Source: Candidatus Kapaibacterium sp.
Lineage (GTDB): Bacteria > Bacteroidota > Ignavibacteria > Kapaibacteriales > WFXC01
Length of the DNA stretch: 64,000 nucleotides
Assembly (NCBI GenBank): GCA_015490805.1
Contig: WFXC01000021.1
Span: forward strand, 1 to 64,000
Direction: 5' to 3'
Shown: positions 1-64,000 of the stretch, piece after piece
Numbering within the stretch: the first letter of the stretch is position 1
Layout of the letters: each line of letters opens with the position of its first letter
Made by a program: the position numbers and the translations under genes
Notes under the pieces: generated by a model
Databases searched by the model: none
The model's input: only the letters and a program-made list of their open reading frames with translations
Told to the model about the DNA's origin: nothing

Positions 1-295
1 CCACAGCACTGTGTCCCGAAAGCGAACATATTCTTGCAGTGGCATTGTCGTCGAATCAACTTCCCAGATCCCGATTTGATTCCATCCTCCGTACACTTTG
101 TAATTGACGCCCACGATTGCTTCTCTGCCCACTGCGGGTTTTTCCAGATCAAAGGTTCGGGTCACAGCGTTGGAAATACCGATGGTGCGTTCAAAGACAT
201 GCAAGCCCTGGGCAAGTGCTGGGAGGGTCATCGCAAGCAGGAGTGTGTACACACACACACACACGATTTGCAGAAAATGTTTTCGCTGACATCAT
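1..295 (-). CDS. Exported protein, N-terminal part (runs off the window); start and signal peptide in different frames across a (GT)8 tract
   Basis: Seen: an ATG at 295 (second ATG at 292) lies about 36 nt below a strong promoter and opens MMSAKTFSANR. The reading frame then enters (GT)8. The hydrophobic core TLLLAMTLPALAQ, ending in a signal-peptidase-like ALAQ, lies one base out of frame with that ATG: the ATG at 295 and the in-frame ATG of the core at 231 are 64 nt apart, not 63 or 66. From 231 the frame stays open to base 1 (77 codons, mature part beginning GLHVFERTIG). One extra GT unit would join start and signal peptide; otherwise translation would need a GTG inside the repeat or the ATG at 231. 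Family not recognised; mature start looks periplasmic or secreted. Inference: phase-variable gene caught OFF, or an assembly error at the microsatellite. Confidence 0.6.
249..264. repeat. Dinucleotide microsatellite (AC)8 / (GT)8 in a signal-peptide coding region
   Basis: Sixteen bases of perfect AC repeat, read as GT on the minus strand, lying between the start codon and the hydrophobic core of the left-edge exported protein. A unit of 2 bp changes frame with each gain or loss. Confidence 0.9.
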
Positions 296-337
296 TTTCC
301 AGATCCTGAAATTGTGAAACGAACTCACAGTGTGAGG

Positions 338-368
338 CAAATATACAAAAAATTCCGGACACAGGCAA
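338..368 (-). promoter_or_regulatory. Bacteroidota-type promoter of the left-edge gene
   Basis: On the minus strand TTG (368-366) is followed by exactly 20 nt and then TATATTTG (345-338), matching TTG-N20-TAnnTTTG. Transcription would begin near 331, giving a leader of about 36 nt to the ATG at 295. This supports the upstream ATG as the intended start. Confidence 0.75.
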
Positions 369-641: not shown

Positions 642-2870
642 TTAGAATGGGAGATTCGGCTTGTTCCCCCGTGGTTTGCGGTGTTCGGTGCCTCGCTGCT
701 GCCGCGAACGCGGAGGGTTCCCACGCTGGGGACGTCCTCCTCGGTGCTGCTGCTCTGGCGGGGGCAGCAGCTCCTTGCGGCTGAGTCGGTACTTGCCGTC
801 CTGCACCGCGATGAGCTTGACTTTGACTTTGTCCCCGACTGCCAGCACGTCGCCGACATTGTGGATGCGGCGGTAGTCGATCTGGGAAATGTGGAGCAAG
901 CCGACCTTGTTGGGGAGAAATTCGACCAGTGCGCCCAATCCCTCGCGAATTTCCCGTACTACGCCCTCATACACTTCGCCAACTTCTGGCTTTTTGACCA
1001 GGTCCTTGATGATGGCTTCGGCTTTCTTTGCTGCTTCCTCGTTAGGCGCATAGATCAGGGCAACGCCTTCCTGCTCGATGAAGATCTCCGTTCCGGTGTC
1101 CTCCGCAATAGCACGAATCGTCGAACCACCCGGTCCGATCACCGCACCGATCATTTCGGGTGGGACAGGGACGCGCCAGATTCGGGGAGCATACGGTGAA
1201 AGCTCCGGACGTGGTGCTGCCAGTACGGCGTTCATTTTTTCCAGAATGAACAGTCGCCCTTGTCGAGCCTGTTCCAGCGCTTTGCGAATGATGTCGTATG
1301 AGATGCCCTGCACCTTAATGTCCATCTGGCACGCGGTGATCCCATCCGCTGTTCCTGCAACTTTAAAGTCCATATCGCCCAGCATATCTTCATCGCCCAG
1401 AATGTCGCTGAGTACGGCGTAGCGACCATCTTCTTCGATAATCAAACCCATCGCAATACCAGAAACAGGTTTGCGGATGGGAATTCCCGCATCCATCAGT
1501 GCTAAGGAGCCGGAGCATACCGTTGCCATTGATGAAGAGCCATTGGACATCAGGATGTCCGAAACCACCCGGATGGTATACGGAAACTCTTCCTCTGGCG
1601 GAATAACGTGTTCCAGAGCCCGTTCTGCCAGATAACCGTGCCCAATTTCTCGACGTGAGGTTGCTCCCATTCGCCGAACTTCGTTGGTACTATAGGGCGG
1701 AAAATTGTAGTGGAGCATAAAGCGCCGGGTATACGTTGGAAGTAATCCCTCAATGACCTGTTCATCGAATTTGGTACCCAGCGTTGCTGTTGCCAGACTC
1801 TGCGTTTCGCCACGTGTGAAGAGAGCAGAGCCGTGCGTTCGCGGCAACAATCCGACTTCAATGGTGATCGGTCGAATTTCGTCCAGCCGCCGCCCGTCAA
1901 TCCGGATGCCTTCATCCAGAATTTTTTTGCGCATCTCCTGCCGCTCAATGTCGCTGACAACGGCGCTGATGATCCGGCTCAGGTTGAGATCCGCATACTC
2001 CGGATTCTCCGCAACGATGGGTTGCAGATGTTCTTCCACTCTCTCCTTGAGTTGCTTGCGAAATTCGGAGCGTTCGGATTTAGTCGTCGGTTTACTGAGA
2101 AATTCCTGGATCTGCGGTTTGGCAAACTGCTCAATTGCCGCTACCAGTGCTTCTGGATACGCTGGTTCGGTGAATTCTTGCTTGGGTTTCCCGGCTTTTG
2201 CCACCAGTTCTCGCTGCAATGCGTTGAGGCGGCGGATGTGGTGATGGGCAAATTCCAGAGCAGCGACAAAATCTTCTTCAGAGACTTCTGAGTAACTTCC
2301 TTCCACCATCACGATGGAATCATCGGTACCGGCGACCACCATATCGAAATCCGAGTATTCCAGTTGGCTCACCCGTGGATTGATAATCCATTCTCCTTCG
2401 ACTCGCCCAACGCGAACTTCGGAAATGGGCCCATTGAACGGGATAGAGGAGAGCATTAGCGCTGCTGATGCTCCCGTTGCTGCCAGCACATCCGCATCGA
2501 ATTCTTGATCGTGCGAAAATACCGTTGCGATAACCTGCGTTTCTTTCCGCCATCCTTTTGGAAACATTGGACGACAGGGACGATCAATCAGTCGGGCAGA
2601 CAGGATTTCCTTGTCCGATGGTTTTGCTTCCCGTTTGAAAAATCCCCCAGGAATTTTCCCAGCCGCCCCCATTTGCTCCCGGTAATCGACAGTCAGAGGG
2701 AGAAAATCCAGATCCATTTCGTTGCCAGAAACGGCTGTGACTAAGACCATCGTCCCTCCCTGCCGTACCATTACTGCTCCGTCTGCCAGGCGGGCAAAAC
2801 GACCGGTTTCGATGGAAAATTCTACTTCGTTTAATTCGCACGATACAGTGTGGACACCTGCTTCCTCCAT
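642..2870 (-). CDS. pnp: Polyribonucleotide nucleotidyltransferase (PNPase)
   Basis: Phosphorolytic 3'-5' exoribonuclease and RNA-tailing enzyme of mRNA decay. The 742-residue protein has two RNase PH-like cores; the second carries the metal-binding segment DILGDEDMLGDMDF near residue 490. A KH domain follows (IGPGGSTIRAI near residue 577), then an S1 domain from about residue 632. The last ~35 residues are rich in Arg, Gly and Pro, a basic disordered tail beyond the usual core length. The ATG at 2870 has a clear GGAAGGAG ribosome-binding site. It follows rpsO after 54 nt in the conserved rpsO-pnp arrangement and is the last gene of the minus-strand translation/RNA block. A short GGGGA..TCCCC inverted repeat directly follows the stop, but without a T-run it is not a convincing terminator. 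Confidence 0.98.
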   Translation of the reverse strand: MEEAGVHTVSCELNEVEFSIETGRFARLADGAVMVRQGGTMVLVTAVSGNEMDLDFLPLTVDYREQMGAAGKIPGGFFKREAKPSDKEILSARLIDRPCRPMFPKGWRKETQVIATVFSHDQEFDADVLAATGASAALMLSSIPFNGPISEVRVGRVEGEWIINPRVSQLEYSDFDMVVAGTDDSIVMVEGSYSEVSEEDFVAALEFAHHHIRRLNALQRELVAKAGKPKQEFTEPAYPEALVAAIEQFAKPQIQEFLSKPTTKSERSEFRKQLKERVEEHLQPIVAENPEYADLNLSRIISAVVSDIERQEMRKKILDEGIRIDGRRLDEIRPITIEVGLLPRTHGSALFTRGETQSLATATLGTKFDEQVIEGLLPTYTRRFMLHYNFPPYSTNEVRRMGATSRREIGHGYLAERALEHVIPPEEEFPYTIRVVSDILMSNGSSSMATVCSGSLALMDAGIPIRKPVSGIAMGLIIEEDGRYAVLSDILGDEDMLGDMDFKVAGTADGITACQMDIKVQGISYDIIRKALEQARQGRLFILEKMNAVLAAPRPELSPYAPRIWRVPVPPEMIGAVIGPGGSTIRAIAEDTGTEIFIEQEGVALIYAPNEEAAKKAEAIIKDLVKKPEVGEVYEGVVREIREGLGALVEFLPNKVGLLHISQIDYRRIHNVGDVLAVGDKVKVKLIAVQDGKYRLSRKELLPPPEQQHRGGRPQRGNPPRSRQQRGTEHRKPRGNKPNLPF

Positions 2871-2924
2871 TCTGCTCCTTCCAGATTTATTTGTTGTACC
2901 TTCTTGTTGTTTGTCAGCAGCGCA

Positions 2925-3197
2925 TTAAAACGGGCGTCGGATGCCCAGCCGATCGCAGACATCCAGATATCGCTGGTAGTCGGTTCGGTAGAGATACCGA
3001 AGTAAGCGACGGCGCTTACCAACTAACAAAATCAATCCTCGCCGGGAATGTTTATCCTTTGGGTGACGTTTCAGATGTTCGGTAATATCAGCGATGCGTT
3101 CTGTCAAAATAGCAATTTGAACGGCTGTATCGCCGGAATTTTTGGGATCGCCACCAAATTGCTGGATCAACTCTGCTTTCCGCTCTTTGGTTACCAT
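2925..3197 (-). CDS. rpsO: 30S ribosomal protein S15
   Basis: A 90-residue protein of normal S15 length that binds 16S rRNA in the platform of the small subunit. Typical signatures are visible: [19 protein letters not shown] N-terminal helix (here [15 protein letters not shown]), the HxKxHxKDxHSRRGL turn ([15 protein letters not shown]) and the basic [11 protein letters not shown] helix. The ATG at 3197 is preceded by AAGGATG. It lies between ribF and pnp on the same strand, as expected for rpsO-pnp. Confidence 0.98.
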
Positions 3198-37451: not shown

Positions 37452-37815
37452 TCTGGAGCCGGCGAAGTCGACACTTCCAGCTCACGGGAGCGCGAGCACG
37501 CATCTCCTGGGAGCGCATACTTCAGTGTGCAAATTTTTCCCTCACCCTTACCATCTCCCAGAGGGAGAGGGAATTTTTGCACTGGTAGGAACGATCCGAC
37601 TGGTCGGCCTCACGGGCGAAGCACCACTTCACCCCTACACAGTGCATATTTTGCCGACGAAAGTCGGCGCTGCCAGTTTGCCGGGAGCGCACGCTTCAGG
37701 GTGAATTCTGTGCCGGCTAAAGCCGGCGCTCCCAGTAGGAGTACGCTCTTAGGGTGCATTTTTGCCGACGAAAGTCGGCGCTCCCCAGAGGCGCTCCCGG
37801 TGAGGTGCTCCCAGA
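37452..37815. repeat. Palindromic repeat cluster 2 between convergent rpsA and moeA
   Basis: Contains a near-complete copy of the three-way-junction repeat at 37682-37735 (outer arm GGGAGC/GCTCCC, inner stem GCCGGC-TAAA-GCCGGC), a further copy at 37737-37784 with a GAAA loop, and partial copies at 37508-37530 and 37652-37678. A different palindromic element rich in CTCCC/GGGAG lies at 37538-37576. No gene is present in this stretch. Confidence 0.85.
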
Positions 37816-37824
37816 GGGGGATTT

Positions 37825-61961: not shown

Positions 61962-62215
61962 TCACCGGGAGCAGATGCTTCAGCGTGCCGGGGAGCGCAC
62001 GCTTCAGGGTTCACTGGGAGCGCACGCTTCAGGGTGCATCTACTGGGAACGCACACTTCAGTGTGCATTTTGTATTTTTGCCGACTAAAGTCGGCGCTCC
62101 CAGTGGGGTTTACCGGGAGCGCACGCTTCAGGGTGCATCTACTGGGAACGCACACTTCAGTGTGCATTTTGTATTTTTGCCGGCTAAAGTCGGCGCTCCC
62201 AGTAGGGCGCTCCCG
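61962..62215. repeat. Palindromic repeat cluster 4 with a tandem duplication, between convergent dehydrogenase and rsmB
   Basis: Two near-identical 89-bp blocks (62016-62104 and 62115-62203, 99-bp period) each hold the outer arm GGGAGC/GCTCCC, stem GCACGCT-TC-AGGGTGC, a second stem GCACACT-TC-AGTGTGC and the GCCGrC-TAAA-GTCGGC hairpin. They differ by a single A/G change in the last hairpin. A third partial copy lies at 61990-62015. No gene is in this stretch. Confidence 0.9.
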
Positions 62216-63883: not shown

Positions 63884-64000
63884 ATGAAAGCTCGCACTAC
63901 CTTCTCGCAGTGTCGCAGCAGTTTTCCGCAGCAGTTTTCCGCAGCAGTTTTCCGCAGCAGTTTTCCTGATTCTCTTCATCGTAGGGACACTTCTTCTATT
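63884..64000 (+). CDS. Exported protein, 5' end (runs off the window); start and signal peptide in different frames across a 13-bp repeat
   Basis: Seen: the ATG at 63884 has a good GAAGGGCG site and begins MKARTTFSQC. It then enters four perfect copies of a 13-bp unit. In the present four-copy state the ATG frame reads on through polar residues (FPDSLHRRDTSSI) to the window end. A hydrophobic stretch FLILFIVGTLLL is encoded just after the repeat in another frame that has no start codon. Removing one unit, or adding two, would place it in frame with the ATG and give a typical signal peptide. Inference: a second phase-variable exported-protein gene in the OFF state, or a repeat-count error in assembly. 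Confidence 0.5.
   Translation, partial: MKARTTFSQCRSSFPQQFSAAVFRSSFPDSLHRRDTSSI
63914..63965. repeat. Four perfect tandem copies of a 13-bp unit
   Basis: CGCAGCAGTTTTC repeated at 63914-63926, 63927-63939, 63940-63952 and 63953-63965. The unit length is not a multiple of three, so each gain or loss changes the reading frame of the gene starting at 63884. Confidence 0.95.

Follow-up and report, generated by a model that had tools for sequence, protein, structure and literature searches.

The gene at the left edge of the window (the whole 64-kb stretch analysed here, i.e. the first 64 kb of contig C20 of the 2.67-Mb source genome, G000) very probably belongs to a multicopy family of operons that encode exported proteins and undergo phase variation of the slipped-strand type, as judged from comparison of the sequences. 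The source genome has at least nine copies, this one included. Further copies are found in two sister species, represented by the MAGs G001 and G002, both labelled Candidatus Kapaibacterium. The copies have in common an identical promoter core, a (GT)n tract and a leader that resembles MTKAKTFSANR.

The window copy and its reading frame

The first position of the window is a contig end that falls inside the first gene of the operon (gene A), so that its copy of gene A is cut. All elements of the gene lie on the minus strand. The promoter assigned to it by the original prediction is indeed present and is of the Bacteroidota type: the −33-like TTG (366–368), shared by nearly all copies, is separated by 20 nt from the −7 element TATATTTG (338–345). 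All 23 copies have this −7 element, and also the promoter core TTTTTTGTATATTTG, in identical form. The leader ATG has its A at 295, with a second ATG at 292, and opens the codons MMSAKTFSANR (265–295), the n-region of a signal peptide, whose reading frame and length are kept in all copies. The (AC)8/(GT)8 tract, the candidate switch, follows at 249–264. The remainder of the signal peptide (211–248) reads YTLLLAMTLPALA in the core frame, with which the ATG is not in phase at n = 8. MTLPALAQG begins at the core ATG (A at 231), which lies 64 nt (frame +1) from the leader ATG across the tract. Read from the leader ATG, the window copy gives MMSAKTFSANRVCVCVHTPACDD... and stops after 34 aa; the core frame is open up to the contig edge and contains the 5′ part of a gene A body of type 1 (1–231; MTLPALAQGLHVFERT...), which is cut by the contig start. 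The gene A fragment of the window shows 95% identity over 77 aa with an intact 495-aa body. The locus adjoins pnp; at this place the copy of G002 is cut at the tract, and none is present in G001.

On recomputation, the originally predicted ATG at 295, the core ATG, the 64-nt spacing and the out-of-frame (GT)8 are exact to the base. It was also claimed that one added GT unit restores the frame. This is correct, but it is automatic for any out-of-frame dinucleotide tract (by plus or minus one unit) and is no evidence alone; hence, the case rests on the comparison between copies.

(GT)n encodes Val-Cys in every frame, and the tract therefore supplies the hydrophobic core of the signal peptide. 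A three-unit step adds two residues to the core and leaves the phase unchanged. Products of in-frame (ON) copies, read from the ATG, carry signal peptides such as MTKAKTFSANRVCVCVYTLLFAMTLPLLAQ. We suggest that the repeat would serve both as the switch and as the hydrophobic core of the export signal. The mechanically called ORF of the window copy begins at GTG 264, in the core frame, and similar GTG starts occur in out-of-frame (OFF) copies, since GTG is present in each of the tract's frames. Were a GTG inside the tract the true start, the tract length would slightly alter the signal peptide and never the frame. We regard this as very unlikely: all copies preserve the upstream ATG and, at unchanged spacing, an n-region that is positively charged and contains KTFSANR; internal GTG starts would produce proteins without an n-region; and the ON copies, when read from the ATG, yield textbook signal peptides.

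Tract length and phase across the copies

A pattern search finds the leader 9 times each in G000 and G002 and 3 times in G001, and not in the backward controls. Two further G002 contigs (C105 and C20) start inside the same leader and are cut at the tract. The cassette DNA was not found in the 38 other genomes of the same order that were searched, and a protein-profile search with the gene A body in 123 genomes of the order gives only weak relatives outside the genus.

With the ATG taken as the start, a non-triplet tandem repeat in the 5′ coding region sets the frame of gene A. Its n ranges from 5 to 16 across the copies with eleven different values, and all three frames occur. Rather than homologues that start inside or after the repeat and lack length variation, we find 21 homologues that keep the upstream ATG and the n-region, with variable n. 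The repeat number thus varies between alleles, namely between copies and at one orthologous locus. At the latter, G001 C90 has n = 13 and G002 C27 has n = 12, with the upstream flanks 97.7% and the downstream flanks 95% identical; both genomes are short-read MAGs with a k-mer coverage of about 2–3x in the contig names, so single n values may be wrong.

Since some copies carry a decoy ATG (GGAATGACAAAATG), phases were read from the in-frame leader ATG instead. Four of the 20 readable copies are ON (G000 C27 with n = 12, G000 C45 with n = 9, G000 C32 with n = 10 and G002 C135 with n = 5), and 16, including both wrong frames, are OFF; G002 C59 is assigned OFF by inference, as its post-tract bases match those of G002 C27, and G002 C132 is cut in the tract, so that its phase is not readable. 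The ON share, computed as 4/19, does not differ from that of random frames (P = 0.19), and a random one-third ON is compatible with it.

Pattern searches show that long GT tracts are concentrated in this family. All nine (GT)≥7 tracts of the 2.67-Mb G000 genome and all three of G001 fall within it. The one such tract of G002 outside the family is a (CA)11 in the signal-peptide region of a different secreted protein. Among the 38 other genomes of the order, outside the genus, 31 have no (GT)≥7 tract and seven have one each; on inspection, none of these seven tracts belongs to the gene A family. The excess of long GT tracts in the family over chance is overwhelming.

This distribution bears on the reading that the OFF state of the window copy and part of the variation are assembly errors in a repetitive short-read MAG. 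The window does begin at a contig end within the gene, many copies break inside the gene, and the k-mer coverage in the contig names of the sister MAGs is low. However, tracts of 10–32 bp fit one read, n is variable in three independent assemblies, the non-repeat bases beside the tract differ between copies too, and assembly error would not place every long GT tract in one family. We consider this explanation highly improbable.

Gene A, gene B and possible exchange between loci

Complete gene A bodies have 489–495 aa and no stops, whether the copy is ON or OFF. The dN/dS values are 0.11 for G001 C90 vs G002 C27 and 0.13 for G001 C159 vs G002 C131, all four copies being OFF. By these ratios, the OFF bodies are under purifying selection and not decayed. 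The contingency-locus architecture proposed by the original prediction is therefore borne out by the variable n of the homologues, by the presence of all three frames and by OFF alleles with an intact and selected downstream coding sequence.

In Pfam, NCBIfam and PDB sequences we find nothing convincing for gene A, and no Pfam family scores above its cut-off. The best score with the SBBP beta-propeller lipoproteins (NF047494) is 15 bits, far below the curated cut-off of 400. The AlphaFold model has a mean pLDDT of 42 and a pTM of 0.52. Its structural matches include many beta-propellers, with TM of 0.45 or less for all of the best 50, and we take this as a hint only that gene A may be a beta-propeller.

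As the window copy is cut, the operon arrangement is read from the other copies. Gene B starts within tens of bases 3′ of gene A wherever the contigs reach it and has about 1400 aa when complete. It contains IgGFc_binding (PF17517) above the gathering cut-off (E values of 2e-29 and 1e-31) and a stalk of ASH/choice-of-anchor D (NF012200) Ig-like domains. Between operons the N-terminal part of gene B is variable and the stalk is near-identical, which would explain the contig breaks there. Gene B thus has the same domains as the IgGFc_binding and choice-of-anchor D surface proteins, but differs from them in its position after a first gene that is a candidate for phase variation, in its many copies and in combining variable N-terminal parts with a near-identical stalk. 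At several loci (G000 C36, C16 and C44, and G001 C67) gene B is preceded only by a remnant of gene A, its last ~60 aa, and the −7 element has a 1-bp deletion in the four aligned. In G001 C90, about 1540–1900 nt past the leader ATG, gene B seems frameshifted near its start relative to G002 C27, a difference that is either genuine or due to low coverage.

The same locus in different species was identified by upstream flanks. Each of the four readable comparisons between G000 and a sister genome (C1/C131, C45/C7, C32/C115, and C5 vs C50 and C47) shows different body types, and the G001/G002 pairs C90/C27 and C50/C47 keep the type. Within G000 the leader similarity is 0.881 for equal and 0.880 for different body types. 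This suggests that recombination between copies accounts for the body differences; misassembly through the shared leaders could account for them too.

An interspersed, partly palindromic repeat family (GGGAACGCACGCTTCAGCGTGCATT...) has dozens of copies genome-wide, often beside the operons. In the window it occurs at 385–590 (unstranded, upstream of gene A and outside the switch), 37642–37817 and 61962–62207. It may promote recombination.

The possible exchange also raises the question whether OFF copies are silent pseudogenes or sequence donors that are not switchable. Such a role would fit the 16 OFF copies among the 20 readable ones, as well as bodies that differ between species at upstream-matched loci and leader similarity that is unrelated to body type, as if cassettes move. 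However, the promoter core is intact in every gene A copy, the bodies are intact and under purifying selection, and every OFF copy is one unit from ON. Silent donors are an improbable explanation of the family in our view, and donor use and phase variation can coexist.

Proposed mechanism and relation to known systems

We suggest the following sequence of events for the phase-variable operons. The fixed promoter and ATG would feed a signal peptide with a (GT)n-coded hydrophobic core, and replication slippage would add or remove one or more GT units. In the right frame, which comes with every third n, a complete signal peptide, e.g. MTKAKTFSANRVCVCVYTLLFAMTLPLLAQ, would be made, followed by the exported gene A protein of ~490 aa. 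In the wrong frames translation would stop after about 16–50 codons with no gene A product, and the expression of gene B may drop by polarity. The copies would switch independently, so that the mixture of surface variants in the population would keep changing. Bodies and switches may also be reassorted by recombination between copies. Switching, that is slippage in living cells, as well as export, the effect on gene B and the protein functions are inferred. MutS and MutL usually reduce dinucleotide slippage, and since the genome has the genes for both, the switching rate may be modest.

More tentatively, and with doubts of our own, we propose that the system could provide combinatorial surface variation, in which dinucleotide switches in a common promoter-leader cassette are joined with the exchange of bodies among about a dozen loci and with a second surface protein, which is variable but has a homogenised stalk. 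It would perhaps be driven by phages or predators, not by host immunity.

Host-adapted pathogens provide the best-known surface-protein families that switch by slippage. If the proposed mechanism is true, the at least nine independently switchable copies in an uncultured Kapaibacterium would represent the same solution outside this group. In the open-access literature we found no paper on phase variation in Kapaibacterium or on slipped-strand tandem repeats in Bacteroidota. GT repeat lengths are readable from metagenomic reads, which would make natural switching accessible without culture.

Two known systems are close in design. Neisseria opa has (CTCTT)n in the code of its leader peptide (PMC3960869). 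As an architecture analogy only, it shares with the gene A family the multicopy surface proteins, the repeat within the signal-peptide code, ON/OFF control by frame and the repertoire reshuffled via inter-copy recombination. Unlike in opa, the repeat is a GT dinucleotide and not a pentamer, the operon includes a second surface protein, and the phylum is different; no relation of gene A to the Opa protein was found in the Pfam search. Helicobacter pylori oipA has (CT)n in its signal-peptide code (PMC10564699), and the dinucleotide tract in signal-peptide codons and the frame-dependent ON/OFF are common to both systems. However, unlike in oipA, the Val-Cys core is GT-coded, one promoter-leader cassette is common to all copies, the protein is unrelated, and MutS and MutL are both present. 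The best reading is that the gene A family would work like opa and oipA, with no sign of homology to either.

Two further repeats were observed. In locus L134 (G002 C64), another secreted-protein gene (1955–3076 of the locus) has a (CA)11 tract immediately ahead of the signal peptide's hydrophobic core. It is in frame in this assembly and is a second candidate phase-variable gene. At the other end of the window (63914–63966), in a region that has no long ORF, the 13-bp unit CGCAGCAGTTTTC is repeated perfectly in tandem (4.1 copies).
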